A stretch of 64,000 bases of DNA from Luteimonas sp. MC1750. GTDB taxonomy: Bacteria; Pseudomonadota; Gammaproteobacteria; Xanthomonadales; Xanthomonadaceae. Location of the stretch: assembly GCF_016615955.1 (NCBI RefSeq), contig NZ_CP067113.1, positions 1,860,001-1,924,000 of the forward strand. Direction: 5' to 3'. This document shows, piece by piece, positions 8,651-27,695 of the stretch (within the stretch, counting starts at the first letter, position 1; every line of letters starts with the position of its first letter). A program made the position numbers and the translations under genes. The notes beneath the pieces are model-generated. The model worked only from the letters and a program-made list of their open reading frames with translations. It was not told the origin of the DNA and made no database searches.

Positions 8651-9238
8651 CTAGGCGCGGGTGGTGACCTGGAAGGCGACGCCCGCCGCCAGTCCTAGCC
8701 CCGCGCCAGAAAGCAGCTCGGCGGCCACATGACGGCCGAGCACCCACCGCGACCATGCCACCGCCAGCATCGCGGCGAGTAGCAGGCCCGATGCCAGGGC
8801 GTGGGGCCAGGCGATGCCGGCAGCGAATGCGGCAAACGCGACATGCAGCGAACTCTTCAGCCGCCCGTGCAGGAGGCGGCCCCCGAGCACGATCGCGCCC
8901 GGCAGGGCGACCGCGACCACCACGTCGCGATGCGCGCCGGCGGCCGCGAGCGCGAGCGCGAGCCCGAAGAACAGCCATGACGCGAAGCGGTTGAACTCGG
9001 CGCGTTCGTGCCGCTGCGAAGCATCGATGTGCGCCCAGCGCCCCGAGCGTGCCTTGGCAACGCTGTACAGCATCACCGCGCCTGCTGCGAGCGCGACGCT
9101 GGCCAGCACCTGGCGTTGCAGCCCGGAGGGAGCGCCGGCCCCTGTCGCCACGGCCGACGCCACCGCCATCAAGGGCACGGGATGGCACAGGATCGAAATC
9201 CCGCGGGCCAGTCGCTGGCGATGGACGGACTCAGCCAT
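8651..9238 (-). CDS. Divergent PAP2-family membrane phosphatase
   Basis: 195-residue membrane protein with about six hydrophobic segments. The C-terminal half matches the PAP2 superfamily: a C2-like LKSSLH (usually PSGH) and a C3-like SRWVLGRHVAAELLSG. In C3 the SR-x5-H-x3-D signature is kept except that the last Asp is Glu, and the first motif (KxxxxxxRP) is not obvious. It may be a degenerate or undecaprenyl/lipid phosphatase relative. Its ATG overlaps the stop of the upstream acyltransferase gene by 8 bases, suggesting translational coupling. Confidence 0.7.
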   Translation of the reverse strand: MAESVHRQRLARGISILCHPVPLMAVASAVATGAGAPSGLQRQVLASVALAAGAVMLYSVAKARSGRWAHIDASQRHERAEFNRFASWLFFGLALALAAAGAHRDVVVAVALPGAIVLGGRLLHGRLKSSLHVAFAAFAAGIAWPHALASGLLLAAMLAVAWSRWVLGRHVAAELLSGAGLGLAAGVAFQVTTRA

Positions 9239-10514
9239 TGCCGCGCCTCCGGAGCTGCCGGGACGCGAGCGCCACGCACGCCAGCCCGACGACGGCGCCC
9301 GGCCAGACGCCCCAGACCAGCGCCGACGCGAGGCCGAGGTACAGCACGAGTCCGCCGGCCAGCGTTGGCCGCAGGGCCTCCACCGCGGGCACCTCGCGCG
9401 TGCGTCGCAGTTCGAAGCGGACCACGAGCGCGACCAGCGGTGCCACGACCAGCAGGCACAGCGCGATCCAACCCAGCCGGCCGAGCCAGAACCCCGGCTC
9501 GCCGGGACTGCCGGCGTCGATCGGCAGGCCCAGGCGCTCGCCCAGCCAGGCGGCCGGGAGTTCGGCCAGCTTGTGCCACAGGTACAGCGGCATGCCGAGC
9601 GCGCCCAGCACCGCGATCACGCGCCCCAGCGCGCGCCCGGCCAGCAGCCGGCGCGCCAGCGGTTCGAAGGCGAGCACCGCGCCGGCCTGCAGCCACATGA
9701 CGCCGACCAGGGCCAGCGTCGGCGGCAGCATGTTGTTGCCCGCCAGCGCCACGCCCACCATCGCCACCGGATAGCCGCTGGCCATCGCCAGGGCGAGCCA
9801 CGCCGTGCCCAGCAGCAGCAGGCCCACGCCTGCGCGCACGCCGCCGAAGCGCCCGCGCTTCCACGCGATGCCCAGCTGCTGCGGCACCAGCCAGACCAGC
9901 AGCATGTTGATCCAGGCGATGCCGGCCGCGCTGTCGGCAACGCCGCGGCCCAGCCAGCGCAGCGCCTGCGGCGTCCAGGCCTGCGCGCGCACCACGTCGA
10001 GCACCGCCGCCACGGCCACCAGGCCAAGCACGGCGCGCAGGCCGAAGCGCGCATCCAGGCGCAGGCACCAGGGCAGCAGCGCCTGCACCGTCAGCAGCAT
10101 CAGCAGGAACCAGAGGTGGATGGTCAGCGACTGGTTGAAGACGGCCAGCAGGCGTCCGCCGGTGAACAGCGACAGCGCGGCCAGCAGCACCAGCGCCGCC
10201 AGGTAGGTGACGGTCGGCCGCGCCAGCCCGAGCGCGCGCGCCGCCCACCACTGGGCCTGCCGTCCGTCCCGCAGCCGCCGCTCCACGCTGCCCGCGCTCA
10301 CCGCCGCCGACACGAAGACGAACAGCGGCACCACCTGCACCAGCCAGGTCAACACGCCGGCCGCGTCCCAGATGCCGAGCAGGTGGTCGGTCTCGACCAG
10401 CCGGCCGTCGACCAGCCGCGGCAGCGTCGCGACCCAGTGCCCCAGCACCACCACCAGCAGCGCGCAGGCGCGCAGTGCATCGGGATAGGGATCGCGATCG
10501 GGTGACTGGGCCAT
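9231..10514 (-). CDS. Acyltransferase family 3 (OafA/YrhL-like) membrane protein
   Basis: About 427 residues from ATG 10514, with around ten hydrophobic helices. Membrane-bound O-acyltransferase 3 family (PF01757), which acetylates or succinylates surface glycans and lipids. The N-terminal signature is present: RDPYPDALRACALLVVVLGH (family R-x10-H) and VPLFVFVSAAVSAGS. IHLWFLLMLLTVQALLPW is also typical. The open frame upstream to 10694 is not protein-like. It overlaps the PAP2 gene by 8 bases, so the pair may act on the same envelope lipid or polymer. Divergent from fdhG. Confidence 0.85.
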   Translation of the reverse strand: MAQSPDRDPYPDALRACALLVVVLGHWVATLPRLVDGRLVETDHLLGIWDAAGVLTWLVQVVPLFVFVSAAVSAGSVERRLRDGRQAQWWAARALGLARPTVTYLAALVLLAALSLFTGGRLLAVFNQSLTIHLWFLLMLLTVQALLPWCLRLDARFGLRAVLGLVAVAAVLDVVRAQAWTPQALRWLGRGVADSAAGIAWINMLLVWLVPQQLGIAWKRGRFGGVRAGVGLLLLGTAWLALAMASGYPVAMVGVALAGNNMLPPTLALVGVMWLQAGAVLAFEPLARRLLAGRALGRVIAVLGALGMPLYLWHKLAELPAAWLGERLGLPIDAGSPGEPGFWLGRLGWIALCLLVVAPLVALVVRFELRRTREVPAVEALRPTLAGGLVLYLGLASALVWGVWPGAVVGLACVALASRQLRRRGNG

Positions 10515-10595
10515 GGCGTCGCGCGCAGAGGATTCGCCGCATCTTAATGGGCGGCGCCGGACGCGGCCCACCGCATTGTCGCGATCCTGCACGCG

Positions 10596-10624
10596 TTTAC
10601 CCGGCCTGCGGCGCGGACTATGCT
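10596..10624 (+). promoter_or_regulatory. Candidate sigma70 promoter for fdhGHI
   Basis: TTTACC (10596-10601) and TATGCT (10619-10624) are spaced by 17 bases, 4/6 matches each, predicting a start near 10631 and a 78-base leader. A small hairpin (CGGCCG arms 10662-10667 / 10674-10679) lies in the leader. No confident FNR or NarL box was seen. Confidence 0.4.
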
Positions 10625-10708
10625 GGGCCGTGCCTGCCTGCATCACGAGGGCACACCACGGCGGCCGGAAACACGGCCGACCCGCCACCACCACGCGAGG
10701 ATCGCTTC

Positions 10709-13700
10709 ATGGTCAGCATGAATCGACGGCAGTTCCTCAAGGTCTCGGGCACCGGCCTGGCAGGCTCCAGCCTGGCGCTGCTCGGCGCCAGTCCTGCGCC
10801 GGCCATGGCCGAAGTCCGCCAGTTCAAGCTGGCGCGCATGACCGAGACCCGGAACACCTGTCCCTACTGTTCGGTTGCCTGCGGCCTGCTCCTCTACGGG
10901 CTGGGTGACGGCGCCAAGAATTCCGCGGCCGCCATCGTCCATATCGAGGGCGATCCGGACCATCCGGTGAACCGCGGCACGCTGTGTCCGAAGGGCGCCG
11001 GGCTGATCGACTTCATCCACAGCCCCAACCGGCTGAAGCAGCCCGAATACCGGGCGCCCGGCTCGGACACGTGGCAGCCGATCAGCTGGAACGACGCGCT
11101 TGACCGCATCGCGCGCCTGATGAAGGACGATCGCGACGCGAACTTCGTCGCGCAGACGCCCGAAGGCCGCACGGTCAACCGCTGGCTCACCACCGGCATG
11201 CTGGCGGCCTCGGCCACCAGCAACGAGACCGCCTACATCACCCACAAGGTCGCGCGCAGCCTCGGCCTTCTCGCATTCGACAACCAGGCCCGCGTTTGAC
11301 ACGGCCCGACGGTGGCAGGTCTTGCCCCGACGTTTGGCCGTGGAGCGATGACGAACCATTGGGTCGACATCAAGAACGCGGACGTGATCCTGATCATGGG
11401 CGGCAATGCAGCCGAGGCCCATCCCTGCGGGTTCAAGTGGGTCACTGAAGCCAAGGCGCACAACGCCGCCAAGCTGATCGTGGTCGATCCGCGCTTCAAC
11501 CGCTCGGCATCGGTCGCGGACTACTACGCCCCGATCCGCACCGGCACGGACATCGTGTTCCTGGGCGCGGCCATCAGCAACCTGCTCGAGACTGACCGGA
11601 TCCACCACGAGTACGTCCGCAACTACACGGACATGTCCTTCGTCGTGCGCGAGGACTTCGCCTTCGACGGCGGCATCTACTCGGGCTATGACGCCGACCG
11701 CCGGCGCTACGACAAGGCGACCTGGGACTACGAGCGCGGCGACGACGGCTACGTCGTCACCGATCCCACGCTGCAGCACCCGCGCTGCGTCTACCAGCTG
11801 CTGAGGAAGCACTACGCGCGCTACACGCCGGAGATGGTCGAGCGGGTCTGCGGGACCACGCAGGAGCAGTTCCACACGGTCCTGGACATGCTTGCGTCGA
11901 CCGCCCGCCCCGACCGCGTGGCGACGATCCTCTACGCGCTGGGCTGGACCCAGCACTCGATCGGCTCGCAGATCATCCGCACCGGCGCGATGCTGCAGCT
12001 GCTGCTGGGCAACATCGGCGCGGCCGGCGGCGGCATGAACGCGCTGCGCGGCCATTCCAACATCCAGGGACTCACCGACCTCGGGCTGATGTCGAACCTG
12101 CTGCCGGGCTACATGACCCTGCCCAACGAGCACGAGCAGGACTACGGCACCTATATCGCCTCGCGCACGCTGAAACCCCTGCGCGAGAACCAGCTCAGCT
12201 ACTGGCAGCACTACGCCAAGTTCCACGTCAGCCTGATGAAGACCTGGTGGGGCGACGCGGCGACGGCGGAGAACGACTGGGCCTTCGACTACCTGCCCAA
12301 GCTCGACAAGCCCTACGACATGCTCCAGACCTACGAGCTGATGGACCAGGGCAAGGTCAACGGCTACATCTGCCAGGGCTTCAACCCGCTGGCGGCGGCG
12401 CCGAACAAGGCCAAGATGGTCTCGGCGCTGTCGAAGCTGAAGTTCATGGTGATCATGGACCCGCTGGTGACCGACACCTCGGAGTTCTGGAAGAACCACG
12501 GCAAGCACCACGACGTCGATTCCTCGGCGATCCAGACCGAGGTCTTCCGCCTGCCGACCACCTGCTTCGCGGAAGAGGAAGGCGCGCTGGTGAATTCCGG
12601 CCGGTGGCTGCAGTGGCACTGGAAGGGCGCCGAGCCGCCAGGCACCGCCAAGCCCGACATCGAGATCATGGCCGGGCTGCACCTGCGCATCCGCGAGCTG
12701 TACAACACCGAGGGCGGCGCGTTCCCGGATCCGATCGTCAACCTGGCCTGGAACTACGCCCAGCCCGCGCACCCCAGCGCCACCGAGCTGGCGATGGAGT
12801 ACAACGGCCGCGCGCTCCAGGACCTGGCCGACCCGCGCGACCCGACCCGCATCACCCGCCGCAAGGGCGAGCAGGTGTCCGGCTTCGGCGAGCTGCGCGA
12901 CGACGGCAGCACCGCCAGCGGCTGCTGGATCTATGCCGGCTGCTGGACCCAGGACGGCAACATGATGGCGCGGCGCGACAACAGCGATCCGACCGGCATC
13001 GGCCAGACCCTCAAGTGGGCCTGGGCCTGGCCGGCCAACCGCCGCATCCTGTACAACCGCGCCTCCGCCGACCCCACGGGCAGGCCCTTCGATCCGACCC
13101 GCGCCCTCGTGGCCTGGAACGGAACCGCCTGGGTCGGCTCCGACGTGCCGGACTTCAAGGCCGACGAGGATCCCGCCGGCGGCATGGGGCCCTTCATCAT
13201 GAATCCCGAGGGCGTGGCGCGCTTCTTCGCCCGCGACGGGATGGCCGAGGGCCCGTTCCCCGAGCACTACGAGCCGTTCGAGACCCCGCTCGGCTACAAC
13301 CCGCTGAACCCGGACACCCCCGGCGCCACCAGCAACCCGGCTGCACGCGTGTTCGAGAGCGACCTCGCGACCATGGGCACGGTAAAGGACTTCCCCTTCG
13401 TCGGCACCACCTACCGCCTGACCGAGCACTTCCACTACTGGACCAAGCACGTCCCGCTCAACGCGATCCTGCAGCCCGAGCAGTTCGTCGAGATCGGCGA
13501 AGGGCTGGCGCACCAGATCGGCGTGGCCAACGGCGAGCGCGTGCGCGTCTCGTCCATGCGCGGCCACATCGAGGCGGTGGCCGTGGTCACCAAGCGCATC
13601 CGCGCGCTCAAGGTCGACGGCAAGACCGTGCACCATGTCGGCATCCCGATCCACTGGGGCTTCACCGGGGTCGCCAAGCCCGGCTACCTGGCCAACACCC

Positions 13701-13777
13701 TCACGCCCTCGGTGGGCGACGGCAACTCGCAGACACCCGAGTTCAAGTCGTTCCTCGTGAACGTGGAAAAGGCATAG
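10709..13777 (+). CDS. fdnG: Formate dehydrogenase-N/O alpha subunit, selenocysteine-containing
   Basis: 1022-residue molybdopterin catalytic subunit oxidising formate to CO2, exported by Tat. The codon at 11297-11299 is TGA but is selenocysteine (residue 197; E. coli FdnG has Sec196). The frame is identical on both sides, the context [21 protein letters not shown] matches FdnG/FdoG, a bSECIS follows, and all four sel genes lie downstream. The Tat signal is [16 protein letters not shown] (Arg6-Arg7). The [4Fe-4S] ligands are Cys51, Cys54, Cys58 and Cys93 ([14 protein letters not shown]). GAGGA at 10697 supports ATG 10709; ATG 10718 is possible. The symbol fdoG would be equally valid. Confidence 0.97.
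11297..11329 (+). promoter_or_regulatory. Bacterial SECIS element (UGA plus hairpin)
   Basis: UGA at 11297-11299, then after 10 bases a hairpin: CGG (11310-11312) pairs with CCG (11327-11329), U11313 is bulged, GGCA (11314-11317) pairs with TGCC (11323-11326), and the apical loop is GGTCT (11318-11322). The bulged U and the GGU in the loop are the features SelB recognises in the E. coli fdhF/fdnG elements, at the expected distance from the UGA. Confidence 0.93.
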
Positions 13778-19846: not shown

Positions 19847-19858
19847 GGACACCACGAT

Positions 19859-19954
19859 GGAAGGCAAGCGCGCCCGGTGGCGTGGCCGGGCTTCAAACCC
19901 GGTTGGGGGCGTCAGCCGCTCCCAGGCAGGTTCGACTCCTGTTGCCTTCCGCCA
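19859..19954 (+). tRNA. selC: tRNA-Sec (anticodon TCA)
   Basis: 96-base selenocysteine tRNA including encoded GCCA. It has the hallmark 8-bp acceptor stem (GGAAGGCA with TGCCTTCC), an anticodon loop CTTCAAA with TCA at 19893-19895, a long variable arm (about 19903-19924), and a T arm with GGTTCGACTCC. The sequence is very close to E. coli selC. Unusually it sits between selB and selD in the same orientation, 37 bases before selD. Confidence 0.98.
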
Positions 19955-19991
19955 TCCCGCGCCGCGCGCGCGCGAACGACCCGAGTGCAGC

Positions 19992-21065
19992 ATGTCCGCA
20001 GATACCCCTGCGCCCGCCGGCGCGACCAAAGCTCCGCGTCTCACCTCGCTGTCCCACGGCGGCGGCTGCGGCTGCAAGATCGCGCCCGGCGTGCTCGCCG
20101 ACCTGCTGAAGCGCTCGGCGCCGGCACGTGCCTGGCCGCAGCTGATGGTCGGCAACGACACCGCCGACGACGCCGCGGTCTACCGCCTCAACGACCAGCA
20201 GGCGCTGATCGCCACCACCGACTTCTTCATGCCGATCGTCGACGATCCCTACGACTTCGGCCGCATCGCCGCCACCAACGCGCTGTCCGACGTCTACGCC
20301 ATGGGCGGCACGCCGGTGATGGCGCTTGCGCTGGTGGGGATGCCGGTCAACGTGCTGCCGCACGCGGTGATCGCCGGGATCCTGCGCGGCGGCGAGGATG
20401 CCTGCGCCGCCGCGGGCATCCCGGTCGCCGGCGGCCACAGCATCGATTCGGTGGAGCCGATCTACGGCCTGGCCGCGATGGGCCTGGCCCATCCCGACCG
20501 CATCCGCCGCAACGTCGACGCGCGGCCCGGCGACCTGCTGGTGCTGGGCAAGCCGCTGGGCGTGGGGATCCAGTCCGCGGCGCTGAAGCGCGGCCGGCTC
20601 GACGCTGCCGGCTATCGCGCCATGATCGACGCCACCACCCGTCTCAACACCCCGGGCATCGCGCTGGCCGCGCTGGACGGCGTGCACGCGATGACCGATG
20701 TCACCGGCTTCGGCCTGCTCGGCCATGCGCTCGAACTGGCGCGCGGCGCGGGCCTCACCCTGCGCCTGCGCTACGACGACCTGCCCTGGCTGCCGGGCGT
20801 GCAGGCACTGGCCGCCGACGGCGTGGTCACCGGCGCGTCCGCCCGCAACTGGGCGGCCTGCGGCGAGCACGTGCAGCTCGGCGCGGACCTCGACACGGTC
20901 GCGCGCGACCTGCTCACCGATCCGCAGACTTCGGGCGGACTGCTCGTGTCATGCGCCCCGCAGGCGCTCGGCGAGGTGCTGGACATCTTCCACCGCGAGG
21001 GCTTCGCCGGGGCCTCGGTCATCGGCGAGACGCGGGCCGGGCCGGTGCGGGTCGAGGTCGGCTAG
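19992..21065 (+). CDS. selD: Selenide, water dikinase (selenophosphate synthase)
   Basis: Makes selenophosphate, the Se donor for SelA, from selenide and ATP. 357 residues, close to the family norm. The N-terminal Gly-rich loop GGGCGCKIAP carries the catalytic Cys and Lys (Cys form, so SelD is itself not a selenoprotein here). ATP/Mg sites appear as GNDTADDAAVY and TTDFFMPIVDDPYDFG; GGHSIDS and DPQTSGGLL are conserved. ATG 19992 is 37 bases after selC; longer upstream starts would run through the tRNA. Confidence 0.96.
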   Translation: MSADTPAPAGATKAPRLTSLSHGGGCGCKIAPGVLADLLKRSAPARAWPQLMVGNDTADDAAVYRLNDQQALIATTDFFMPIVDDPYDFGRIAATNALSDVYAMGGTPVMALALVGMPVNVLPHAVIAGILRGGEDACAAAGIPVAGGHSIDSVEPIYGLAAMGLAHPDRIRRNVDARPGDLLVLGKPLGVGIQSAALKRGRLDAAGYRAMIDATTRLNTPGIALAALDGVHAMTDVTGFGLLGHALELARGAGLTLRLRYDDLPWLPGVQALAADGVVTGASARNWAACGEHVQLGADLDTVARDLLTDPQTSGGLLVSCAPQALGEVLDIFHREGFAGASVIGETRAGPVRVEVG

Positions 21066-24941: not shown

Positions 24942-27443
24942 TCAGCCCGTCGCCTGCACCCTGCGCGGCACGCGCAGTGGCGGGATGACCAGGGTGGTGT
25001 ATTCCTCGTAGTGCGCCGTCGGCAGGCCCGACAGCGGCAGGCGCTCGATGCGCGGCGCGTCGATCGGCAGCTGCGCCGCCTCGTACAGCACCACCTCGTG
25101 GTCGGCCGGATACCAGCGCAGCAGCTTGGCCACCAGGGCCTCGAGGCCTTCCGGCTCCGCATGCAGGCGGGTGCAGGACAGGTCGCCCGCCAGCGTCACC
25201 TGCCACAGCAGCACCAGCGCGGCGGTATCGGGCTCGCGCTCGTGGATGAGGAAATGCGTGGCTTCCAGCGACTGCACGCCGCGCAGCCCCGGATCGACGC
25301 CGAGATCGGCGTAGAGACAGGCCTCGGCCGAGATCCCGGGCTCCATCCGCGCCGGCAGGCCGAGTTCGCGGGTCTTGCGGACCACCGCATGCGGCACGTC
25401 GGCGAAGACGCCGGGATGGCCATAGAACACCGCGCAGACCTGCCGGCCGGCCTCGACCTCGGCCATGATCGCGGCGTCGATCTCGCGATAGGTCTCGCGC
25501 CGGTCCTTGCCCGGTGCGTAATGCATCCCGAGGTTCACCGCGTCCGGCCGGAAGCCCAGGATCATGCCCAGGGCGAAGGGATCGACCAGGCAGAACACCA
25601 CCTCGGCCTCGCGGATCTCGGACAGCGTGCGCTCGCTCGCGTGGCGGCCGAACTGGATGCCGCTGCCCACCACCACCAGCGAGCCGCGCGGGCCCTCGTC
25701 CTGCAGCGCGCCTTCGCCCTGCGCGCGGACCACGCGGTCGCGGCCGCCGTGCTTGGCCCGGTAGAGCGCCTGGTCGGCGTTGTGGATGAGCTGCTCGAGG
25801 GTGCTGGTGCTGCCGTCGTACTGGCAGACGCCGGCGCTGAGGTTGAAGCTGAAGGTCTGTCCGAACACGGTGACCGGCCCGATCCGTTCGCGCAGCCGCT
25901 GCATCAGCGCGTCGGCGTCGGCGGCACTGCCCTCGAGCAGGATGGTGAACTCGTCGCCGCCGCTGCGTCCGGCGATGCCGTCGTTGCCGACCACCTCGCT
26001 GATCCAGCCGCCGAGGCAGCGCAGCGCCTCGTCGCCCGCGGCATGTCCATGGCGGTCGTTGACCTGCTTGAACAGGTCGATGTCGGCGATGATCGCGGTG
26101 AATGGACGGTTGCCCTGGCGCGCGCGCTTGAAGGCTTCGCTCCCGCGCATGCGCACCTGCTGGTAGTTGAACAGGCCGGTCAGTCCGTCGCGTTCGGACT
26201 GCCGGCGGTAGCGGCCCCGCTCGCGCGAGCTGTGGCGCAGCAGCAGCAGGAGCAGCAGCGCGGTCGCCATCAGGCCGAAGATGCCCAGGCCCAGCAGCCA
26301 CTGCCGGCGCTGCGTGGCGGTGACCTGCAGCGCGGCCAGCTCCTTCTCGGCCTCGAGCAGCGCGATCTGCTGCTCCTTCAGCCGCGTGTCGAACTCGACC
26401 TGCAGGTAGGCCAGCCGGCGTTCGCGCGATTCACGCTCGGCGACCTCCTGGGCCGCCATCGCGCGCTGCAGGTGGGTGAGCGCACCGGCGTTGTCGCCGC
26501 GCTGCTCGGCCAGCCTGGCCAGCAGGCGCTCGGTCTCGGCCACCGCGAGTTCGGTCTTCTGCCCGCGGTAGTACTCCAGCGTGTCCAGCAGCAGGCTCTC
26601 CGCACGGCGCAGGTCGCGGTCGAGCGCGATGAGGTTGCCGGCCATCTCCAGCCGCGCGCTCCAGCTGCCGGCGGTGAACCCGGCGGCCTCGAACTCGGCA
26701 AGCGCCTGGCGCGACCACTCCAGCGCCTCTTCCGGCCGGCCCTGGGCGGCGACCATCTTGCCCACGCCGTACTTGGCGTTGGCGACGAAAACCAGGTCGC
26801 CGGCCGCCTGGCAGGCCTCGAGCTGCTGGCGCCTCCAGGCCTCGGCCTCGCTGAAGTTGCCCGCGTGGTCCTCGGCCATGGCCAGGTCGGCAATGGCCAG
26901 GCAGCGCGCACGCGCGTCCCCACCGGACTCGACCGCGTCCAGTCCCTGGCGCGCCAGGTCGCGCGCCTTGCCGATCTCGCCCACGAGGGTGTGCAGGTAG
27001 CTGGCCACGCCGAGCAGCGCGGGCGCGCTCTCCGGGGCGTCCGGCAGGTACTCCAGGCCCTCGCTCAGCCAGCCGAACGCCCGCGGCCAGTCCTCGACGT
27101 TGGCGGCGATGCTGATCGCGGTGGTATAGGCGCGCACGCGCTGCGCCGGGGAGATCTCCTGCTGCTGCAGCAGCCGGGCGAATCCCTCGAGCGCCGCGGG
27201 TTCCCTGCCGGCGAGCCCGAGGTTGCGCAGGCGCACGAACTCGACCCGCGCGCGCTGTTCCGGCGAGAGTTCGTCCAGACGCGTCGCCAGGTCGTCGACC
27301 TTGCGCTCGGATTCGCGCCAGTGCGCGGAAATCGACAGCTGCTCGATTTCCGCGACCTGCGCTTCCAGGGCATCGTTGGCGAACGCGCGCGGTCCCGCCA
27401 GCACCAGCAGCAGGATGGCGACAATGCGGACCAGCCGGCTCAT
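24942..27443 (-). CDS. TPR-TM-GGDEF protein fused to a borosin-type peptide N-methyltransferase domain
   Basis: 833 residues in one frame. Hydrophobic N-terminus (5-22, likely signal), TPR-like helices (about 25-335), coiled coil (335-380), TM helix (383-403), GGDEF domain (about 416-575; DGLTGLFN 419-426, SGGDEF 494-499; no RxxD inhibitory site), then a tetrapyrrole-methylase-fold domain (587-833). That last part has GSLVVVGSGI (587-596), an APGKDRRETY block matching the OphMA catalytic Arg/Tyr region (643-652), YGHPGVF (674-680), PGISAEACLYADLGVDP (702-718) and SLEATHFL (725-732). These are hallmarks of borosin alpha-N-methyltransferases (SonM, OphMA), not of cobalamin methylases. The predicted topology puts the TPRs outside and both enzyme domains in the cytosol. 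It lies 39 bases after a SonA-like peptide gene. Domain calls firm; borosin role inferred. Confidence 0.85.
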   Translation of the reverse strand: MSRLVRIVAILLLVLAGPRAFANDALEAQVAEIEQLSISAHWRESERKVDDLATRLDELSPEQRARVEFVRLRNLGLAGREPAALEGFARLLQQQEISPAQRVRAYTTAISIAANVEDWPRAFGWLSEGLEYLPDAPESAPALLGVASYLHTLVGEIGKARDLARQGLDAVESGGDARARCLAIADLAMAEDHAGNFSEAEAWRRQQLEACQAAGDLVFVANAKYGVGKMVAAQGRPEEALEWSRQALAEFEAAGFTAGSWSARLEMAGNLIALDRDLRRAESLLLDTLEYYRGQKTELAVAETERLLARLAEQRGDNAGALTHLQRAMAAQEVAERESRERRLAYLQVEFDTRLKEQQIALLEAEKELAALQVTATQRRQWLLGLGIFGLMATALLLLLLLRHSSRERGRYRRQSERDGLTGLFNYQQVRMRGSEAFKRARQGNRPFTAIIADIDLFKQVNDRHGHAAGDEALRCLGGWISEVVGNDGIAGRSGGDEFTILLEGSAADADALMQRLRERIGPVTVFGQTFSFNLSAGVCQYDGSTSTLEQLIHNADQALYRAKHGGRDRVVRAQGEGALQDEGPRGSLVVVGSGIQFGRHASERTLSEIREAEVVFCLVDPFALGMILGFRPDAVNLGMHYAPGKDRRETYREIDAAIMAEVEAGRQVCAVFYGHPGVFADVPHAVVRKTRELGLPARMEPGISAEACLYADLGVDPGLRGVQSLEATHFLIHEREPDTAALVLLWQVTLAGDLSCTRLHAEPEGLEALVAKLLRWYPADHEVVLYEAAQLPIDAPRIERLPLSGLPTAHYEEYTTLVIPPLRVPRRVQATG

Positions 27444-27482
27444 GGACTGGCGGTCGTCAGCGGACGGCGGCGAGGACGGCGG

Positions 27483-27695
27483 CTAGTACGCCTTCACGAT
27501 GTGGTTGGTCGCGAACTGTCCGTCGGTCAGCCCGGTGAGCTTCTTGATGGACGCGTAGTCCTTGGACAGCATCGCTTTCTGCTCCTCGTCGGTGAGGCCG
27601 GAGCGCCGCACCACCGAGTCAGGATCCTTCTCGTACTCCGCGGCGAGCGCGGCATCGCTCGCGAGCTTCCTCATCAGGTCGAGCAGCGTCAGCAT
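27483..27695 (-). CDS. Putative split-borosin precursor peptide (SonA/LigA-like)
   Basis: 70-residue peptide with a strong AAGGGGA ribosome site 7 bases before ATG 27695. Residues about 1-55 form a helical domain (LTLLDLMRKLASDAALAAEY, then DPDSVVRRSGLTDEEQKAML) similar to the N-terminal helical domain of SonA, the Shewanella split-borosin substrate, which is often auto-annotated as LigA-like. Residues 56-70 form a short flexible tail ending ATNHIVKAY, in the place where SonA is N-methylated. It is directly upstream of, and in operon with, the gene carrying a borosin-type methyltransferase domain. There is no LigB partner, so a dioxygenase subunit is unlikely. Candidate methylation sites are in HIVKAY (65-70); inference only. 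Confidence 0.78.
   Translation of the reverse strand: MLTLLDLMRKLASDAALAAEYEKDPDSVVRRSGLTDEEQKAMLSKDYASIKKLTGLTDGQFATNHIVKAY

Follow-up and report, generated by a model that had tools for sequence, protein, structure and literature searches.

The locus and its products

We analysed a stretch of 64,000 nucleotides (hereafter the window) from Luteimonas sp. MC1750, contig NZ_CP067113.1, and in particular two adjacent genes on its minus strand. One encodes a 70-residue peptide resembling SonA, the precursor of the split borosin pair SonM/SonA. The other encodes an 833-residue protein that joins a borosin-type methyltransferase domain to a predicted membrane signalling protein with tetratricopeptide repeats (TPRs) and a GGDEF domain. 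The two open reading frames (ORFs), 27695..27483 and 27443..24942, are separated by 39 bases, the larger lying downstream. Their features are as follows.

27483..27695, minus strand: SonA-like borosin precursor peptide gene, 70 residues (SonA sequence and fold match; 112 homologues)
27534..27695, minus strand: leader / borosin-binding domain, residues 1-54 (helices in model; Pfam LigA sub-threshold)
27486..27533, minus strand: putative core and predicted methylation zone, residues 55-70, GLTDGQFATNHIVKAY (conservation; no helix in model)
24942..27443, minus strand: TPR-membrane helix-GGDEF-borosin methyltransferase fusion, 833 residues (ORF, Pfam, homologues)
27375..27443, minus strand: predicted signal peptide, residues 1-23 (hydrophobic 1-19; sequence ...PRAFAND; cleavage site judged by eye)
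26301..27374, minus strand: predicted periplasmic TPR domain and long helix into the membrane, residues 24-381 (Pfam TPR_12, AlphaFold2, Foldseek)
26229..26300, minus strand: membrane helix, residues 382-405 (hydropathy)
25725..26210, minus strand: GGDEF diguanylate cyclase domain, residues 412-573 (PF00990; motifs intact)
25686..25724, minus strand: variable linker, residues 574-586 (2.42 bits of mean entropy among fused proteins)
24945..25685, minus strand: borosin alpha-N-methyltransferase domain, residues 587-833 (PF00590; SonM match; conserved catalytic residues)

The larger ORF is a single open frame whose product runs, from N- to C-terminus, through a hydrophobic stretch, the TPRs, a membrane helix, the GGDEF domain and a domain with the TP_methylase fold. 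Pfam places TPR_12 (3.8e-11), GGDEF (PF00990, 5.4e-34, residues 418-570) and TP_methylase (PF00590, 4.6e-16, residues 589-790) above their cut-offs. Hydrophobic stretches lie at residues 1-19, 382-405 and 613-630, the last of these within the methyltransferase domain. The GGDEF motif falls at residues 495-499, YGHPGVF at 674-680, PGISAEACLYADLGVDP at 702-718 and SLEATHFL at 725-732. An earlier, sequence-only reading of this DNA had described one such 833-residue frame and placed the motifs GGDEF, YGHPGVF and SLEATHFL in it; the ORF, Pfam, hydropathy and motif positions all agree. The genome gave a single match to the methyltransferase and a single match to the precursor, that is, no further copies. 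Around the two genes, a simple consensus scan detected neither sigma-70 promoter nor terminator patterns.

A borosin-type methyltransferase and the adjacent peptide

Sequence comparison identifies the C-terminal domain as a borosin-type alpha-N-methyltransferase rather than a cobalamin or siroheme enzyme. Its best relative among solved structures is SonM (E 2.2e-68), and the fungal borosin enzymes match it at E values of about 1e-31 to 1e-37 (OphMA about 7e-36), against only 1.4e-4 for the best precorrin enzyme. Since the domain matches PF00590, it could also be read as a tetrapyrrole (corrin/porphyrin) methylase, with the small ORF unrelated. We give this virtually no credence and rejected it at the family level. 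SonM and the fungal borosins score better than the precorrin enzymes, with E-values over 25 orders of magnitude lower, so that the closest relatives are borosins, and the catalytic residues of borosins are kept. Equivalents of SonM Y58, R67 and Y71 are conserved in 107/107, 107/107 and 106/107 of the fused or GGDEF-linked sequences, the lone exception being a G at the Y71 position of one fused sequence. In the methyltransferase tree, SonM itself falls inside the GGDEF-linked enzymes.

The peptide matches SonA chains by sequence (E 1.8e-07), and the Pfam LigA profile scores it below the cut-off (0.00041). Its predicted model has five helices (residues 4-13, 15-23, 25-31, 36-43 and 47-54) and a disordered tail. 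The mean predicted local distance difference test score (pLDDT) is 74, a moderate confidence, with core residues 55-70 at low confidence and free of helix. The SonA leader is the top PDB match of this predicted fold (1.0 Å over 50 residues, Foldseek probability 1.00), at a Foldseek E of only 0.058 for so short a chain. Two proposals of the sequence-only reading, a borosin methyltransferase and a SonA-like ORF of 70 residues 39 bases upstream of it, thus hold up, and the domain likely N-methylates the conserved tail of the peptide.

We found 112 homologues of the precursor. In an alignment of 111 rows (the homologues plus the window's own peptide, minus two divergent rows), residues 53-70 have a mean entropy of 0.58 bits compared to 0.84 bits for residues 1-52. 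As the search favours similar sequences, it is the relative entropy of core and leader that counts here, not the absolute value. A core more conserved than its leader is unlike the pattern expected of a diversifying toxin. In a gap-free alignment, SonA L63 and I65 (residue numbering from PMC8429565) fall on T63 and H65 of the peptide; we claim no methylation site because the cores of one group of relatives (layout i, below) carry gaps.

The fused family

A database search with the methyltransferase region returned 336 matches at E of at most 1e-10 within the set length limits, the window's own protein included. GGDEF and TP_methylase are paired in all 120 of these that were listed, 113 of which are 820-870 residues long. 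We therefore rejected chance or an assembly accident as the source of the fusion. The genera named include Luteimonas, Pseudoxanthomonas and Rubrivivax. In the loci that we fetched, 24 of 26 fused genes have a precursor immediately upstream, and the other two (L016, L143) begin at a contig end; the small upstream ORF is thus a conserved companion of the fusion. Two sequence patterns named in advance as refuting the sequence-only reading, a domain clustering with cobalamin/siroheme methylases and homologous loci without a conserved small ORF upstream, were therefore both looked for and not found. The methyltransferase is the most conserved domain of the family (mean entropy 0.46 bits), followed by GGDEF (0.74) and TPR (1.06). 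The fused sequences form one clade in the tree (98/76; 97% of 200 bootstrap trees), and its neighbours are operons ordered precursor, TPR-GGDEF, methyltransferase. The nearby forks are modestly supported, and support values are rough because bootstrapping stopped short of full convergence and the tree was rooted at its midpoint.

The cyclase motifs GGDEF and DxDxFKxxND are intact in 120/120 listed fused proteins, again counting the window's own, whose GGDEF domain carries the motifs predicted for an active cyclase. Diguanylate cyclases commonly, though not obligatorily, have an RxxD inhibitory site (I-site). It occurs in 2/120 of the listed fused proteins, 0/21 layout-i and 35/60 layout-ii proteins (layouts defined below), and the window's protein has GxxG at this position. 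Lacking the product-inhibition site, the window cyclase would rest more on the receptor for its control.

Some family members show unusual arrangements. A Dokdonella metagenome-assembled genome (L013, 688-6765) holds a tandem pair of precursor plus TPR-GGDEF-methyltransferase units, and two copies occur in Rubrivivax gelatinosus IM 151, each on its own contig (L014, L022). L019 (4203-6777, plus strand), counted among the 26 fused genes, reads as two overlapping frames, one with the TPRs and one with GGDEF-methyltransferase.

Signalling genes beside split relatives

Scanning named genomes yielded 32 loci, and ranked hits were obtained in 133/395 genomes of a family sample, 144/299 of an order sample, 10/369 of a class sample and 15/398 of a phylum sample. 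From the named loci and the regions fetched from ranked hits we counted 130 distinct methyltransferases, setting aside short loci (L001 and L034-L063) and three near-duplicates (at least 98% identity). Loci were taken from ranked hit lists, mostly as the best hit per genome; the choice is thus not random, and the 130 loci share ancestry and are not 130 independent events.

Among the 130, 26 methyltransferases are fused to TPR-GGDEF. Within 1.2 kb and on the same strand, another 21 have a GGDEF gene upstream of them (layout i, median gap -3 bases), 60 have one downstream (layout ii, median gap 348 bases) and 23 have none. By a crude search, a precursor was detected in 37/60 layout-ii loci. The expected chance of a same-strand GGDEF neighbour within 1.2 kb is about 1.9% at the median and at most 3.9%, with 16-63 GGDEF domains per genome in 20 genomes, the window's own among them. 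Moreover, the window's TPR profile matches 78 of the 81 separate GGDEF partners with an E of at most 1e-4, and a 79th (L117) at 2e-4. L156 was assigned to layout i on the basis of the closest GGDEF gene, one without a TPR match; its methyltransferase is flanked on the opposite side by a TPR-GGDEF gene. Switches of gene order and swaps of partner suggest that the link was kept through rearrangement.

The methyltransferase of L125 is 78% identical to SonM over 242 residues, SonM groups with it in the tree, and both a precursor and a TPR-GGDEF gene adjoin it; we infer that L125 comes from Shewanella.

Precursor cores differ between loci. The window's core is of a TNHxI type, unlike a second type in layout-ii precursors (e.g. 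L065, L073, L151), which is M(F)CM-x-x-APDE-like with long acidic tails.

TPR as the usual constant

Of the 23 loci that lack a nearby GGDEF gene on the same strand, nine have another TPR protein, identified by Pfam, beside the borosin genes:

L024 (twice), L027: TPR-HisKA-HATPase partners
L130, L134: TPR-kinase-receiver hybrid partners
L026: Pkinase-TPR partner
L028, L030: BTAD-NB-ARC-TPR activator partners
L031, L032: plain TPR partners

The usual constant of borosin neighbourhoods is thus TPR, not GGDEF, and the output varies. One cluster (L144, 4088-10036, minus strand) combines a single precursor, a TPR-kinase-receiver protein, a methyltransferase and a TPR-GGDEF protein, and the TPR region of its kinase matches that of the window at 5e-43. 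This locus is a natural site for comparing two outputs. No TPR partner was found in the other 14 of the 23 loci. Among these, L132 has a GGDEF gene on the opposite strand, L136 and L137 have one 1.8 kb off, and nothing was noticed near the remaining 11, one of which ends at a contig end. The GGDEF protein of L136 and L137 has no TPR match (in L137 it is of the 7TMR-DISM type by Pfam), and a SonA-like ORF adjoins the methyltransferase in both loci.

In wider samples, borosin genomes are scarce: 3/112 for a sample centred on Polyangium, 3/126 on a cyanobacterium, 6/131 on a chloroflexote and 7/129 on an acidobacterium, centre genomes included. These searches added loci L164-L183, of which L168 repeats L026, leaving 19; L164, L165 and L166 are from the genomes of L030, L027 and L031. 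A TPR partner is present in 9/19 (L164, L166, L171-L177), namely BTAD-TPR proteins (chloroflexote sample), TPR proteins in pairs (cyanobacterial sample) and a Pkinase-TPR protein (Polyangium genome). L173-L177 are closely alike, and L174, L175 and L177 were assigned solely by their near-identical N-termini. The other 10/19 have no identified TPR partner, most neighbours of nine of them being unscanned; the tenth, L178, has a protein kinase with no Pfam TPR hit. The borosin-TPR pairing thus recurs, in part, outside Gammaproteobacteria. Separately, in the acidobacterial sample, L179-L181 carry 319-residue frames whose start resembles, by eye, a borosin-binding domain; these frames match the methyltransferase profile as well and directly precede a second methyltransferase.

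These partners bear on the view of the sequence-only reading, in which an outside signal may gate both the cyclic di-GMP enzyme and the methylation. The TPR region would then sense some outside cue that is passed to both the GGDEF domain and the methyltransferase, and methylated peptide would be an output, not the signal. In the fused clade the enzyme is indeed part of the receptor chain. GGDEF domains function as dimers. Borosin methyltransferases are dimeric as well (SonM acts as a homodimer; PMC8429565), so that a single dimer switch could set both. However, the methyltransferase of split loci is unattached to the receptor, so gating through the chain cannot be general, and some partners are plain TPR or transcription-activator proteins. 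We consider this view unlikely. Since the borosin pair accompanies various sorts of TPR protein, the signal may be the peptide itself.

A possible peptide-to-cyclic-di-GMP relay

The AlphaFold2 model of the TPR domain has a mean pLDDT of 93.3. Its top Foldseek match is a Rap receptor with bound pheromone (E 6.2e-08), and further Rap and NprR receptors are among the matches. Rap and NprR, like AimR, are peptide-pheromone receptors of the RRNPP family. The output of RRNPP receptors is a helix-turn-helix or phosphatase function. The modelled likeness lies in the TPR receptor fold. Unlike the cytoplasmic RRNPP receptors, the window's TPR region is placed outside the cytoplasm by hydropathy (stretches 1-19 and 382-405); it is predicted to be periplasmic and membrane-anchored in a Gram-negative host. 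It also differs in the borosin-type precursor and in the GGDEF or kinase output of the window system and its relatives.

We propose that the methylated SonA-like peptide is a signal read by the TPR region to set cyclic di-GMP synthesis, a reading to which we give a probability of roughly 45%. The C-terminal domain would N-methylate the conserved tail of the peptide, which would then be freed and moved to the periplasm, perhaps helped by its N-methylation. There the TPR superhelix would bind the methylated peptide, and the long helix and membrane segment would relay binding into changed cyclase activity. The fusion would hold the peptide maker at the receptor and set their stoichiometry. Confidence differs between these parts. 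It is very likely that this precursor is the substrate of the methyltransferase, whose predicted location is the cytoplasmic side, and probable that the peptide and the TPR signalling protein work in one pathway. More tentative, at a little under even odds, is that freed peptide in the periplasm binds the superhelix and alters cyclase activity through the helix and membrane segment.

Two results weigh against the proposed relay. A second aligner scores non-pheromone TPRs above the pheromone receptors for the TPR model. In addition, crude blastp clustering of neighbours (longest frames, clusters of at least 6 loci, without a Pfam scan) revealed no recurring peptidase or exporter partner. With TPR-GGDEF/methyltransferase proteins, precursors and antisense-looking frames set aside, the widest other cluster was a receiver-like protein in 14/129 loci, and the rest reached at most 7.

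The lack of a recurring exporter or peptidase in this clustering would suit a precursor that stays in the cytoplasm as a regulatory subunit, its leader docking on the methyltransferase and opening or blocking the neighbouring GGDEF dimer in a methylation-dependent way. By prediction, the leader folds into a docking domain, and the peptide gene accompanies 24/24 assessable fused genes. Yet partners that share only TPR (kinases and transcription activators) recur without a fused methyltransferase, and we regard this explanation as quite improbable.

The same clustering bears on a more conventional explanation, namely an ordinary borosin natural-product cluster with a TPR-GGDEF regulator by happenstance and a secreted bioactive peptide. 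Biosynthetic clusters commonly encode their own regulators, and omphalotin A, the founding fungal borosin, is nematocidal (PMC11285071). On the other hand, no export, immunity, protease or further tailoring gene recurred in the crude clustering, the precursor core is highly conserved, and regulator and enzyme are fused in one clade. An ordinary natural-product cluster thus strikes us as a poor account of the loci.

Many relatives keep peptide genes beside signalling proteins, and we therefore predict that the methylated peptides of these loci serve as cell signals and not as antibiotics.

Relation to known systems

The closest characterized system is SonM/SonA of Shewanella oneidensis, a type IV split borosin with a homologous methyltransferase and a separate, adjacent precursor whose leader has five helices like those predicted in the window. 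Type IV is marked by a free-standing methyltransferase of about 263 residues, whereas the window's methyltransferase is the C-terminus of an 833-residue protein, fused to TPR-membrane helix-GGDEF, and its methylation of the peptide is a prediction. The split relatives of the fusion keep separate methyltransferase genes. Tail sequences also differ (GQFATNHIVKAY in the window peptide, DYQMFVVINHGNN in L125). In the fungal fused borosins (OphMA, dbOphMA) the methyltransferase is again homologous (E about 1e-34 to 1e-37), but the fusion partner is the substrate peptide; in the window it is a signalling protein, and the substrate is encoded apart. TPR diguanylate cyclases share the TPR-membrane helix-GGDEF layout and the active-cyclase motifs. 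To these the window adds a borosin-type methyltransferase domain and a paired precursor gene, and the fused proteins also differ in the rarity of the RxxD I-site.

PMC11285071 credits Cho et al. and Imani et al. with the definition of borosin types V-X. In the sequence-only reading, the borosin domain and the SonA-like upstream ORF stand, and its claim to know of no described borosin enzyme with a GGDEF domain fails in part. The legend of Figure 1 in Xu et al. 2024, on borosin architectures, names a GGDEF-sequence-containing domain (PMC11395268), so that a borosin architecture with GGDEF has been published before. The window's protein has a GGDEF domain too; the domain named in the legend may be fused or separate in whichever borosin type bears it. 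The main text of PMC11395268 mentions neither TPR nor diguanylate, and the main text of PMC8429565 on SonM/SonA mentions neither GGDEF, tetratricopeptide nor cyclic-di-GMP. Among the open-licence papers searched, 32 of which mention borosin, borosin and GGDEF are paired only in PMC11395268 and borosin and diguanylate cyclase nowhere; 'borosins' and TPR likewise nowhere, while borosin and histidine kinase are co-mentioned in a marine-peptide review. Neither the TPR-partner rule nor the output swap was found there, and the wider TPR-partner pattern with swapped outputs appears new.

Other features of the window

At Rfam gathering thresholds the window contains no cyclic di-GMP riboswitch, and only SECIS_3 and tRNA-Sec matched. 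The SECIS_3 element (11294-11352, plus strand) has an in-frame TGA at 11297 and lies within a long plus-strand frame, 9002-13774, in which TGA is taken as a residue. The selenocysteine kit of the window also includes the tRNA-Sec gene (19859-19950, plus strand) and a frame that is SelD-like by eye (19857-21065, plus strand).

Implications

Taking the loci together, we advance a broader conjecture, to which we give less than even odds. Many bacterial borosins would be signalling peptides that, once backbone N-methylated and mature, serve as dedicated ligands for TPR receptors with an interchangeable output (GGDEF, histidine kinase with or without receivers, Ser/Thr kinase or BTAD-type activator). 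In Luteimonas and its relatives, maker and receptor would sit in one protein, as a Gram-negative peptide-to-cyclic-di-GMP relay analogous to RRNPP. This proposes a concrete role for bacterial split borosins, most of those examined travelling with TPR signalling proteins. If true, it would tie backbone N-methylation, a drug-like chemistry, to signalling in bacteria. Many orphan borosins would gain a candidate receptor, and the control of cyclic di-GMP in Gram-negative bacteria would gain an input driven by peptides.

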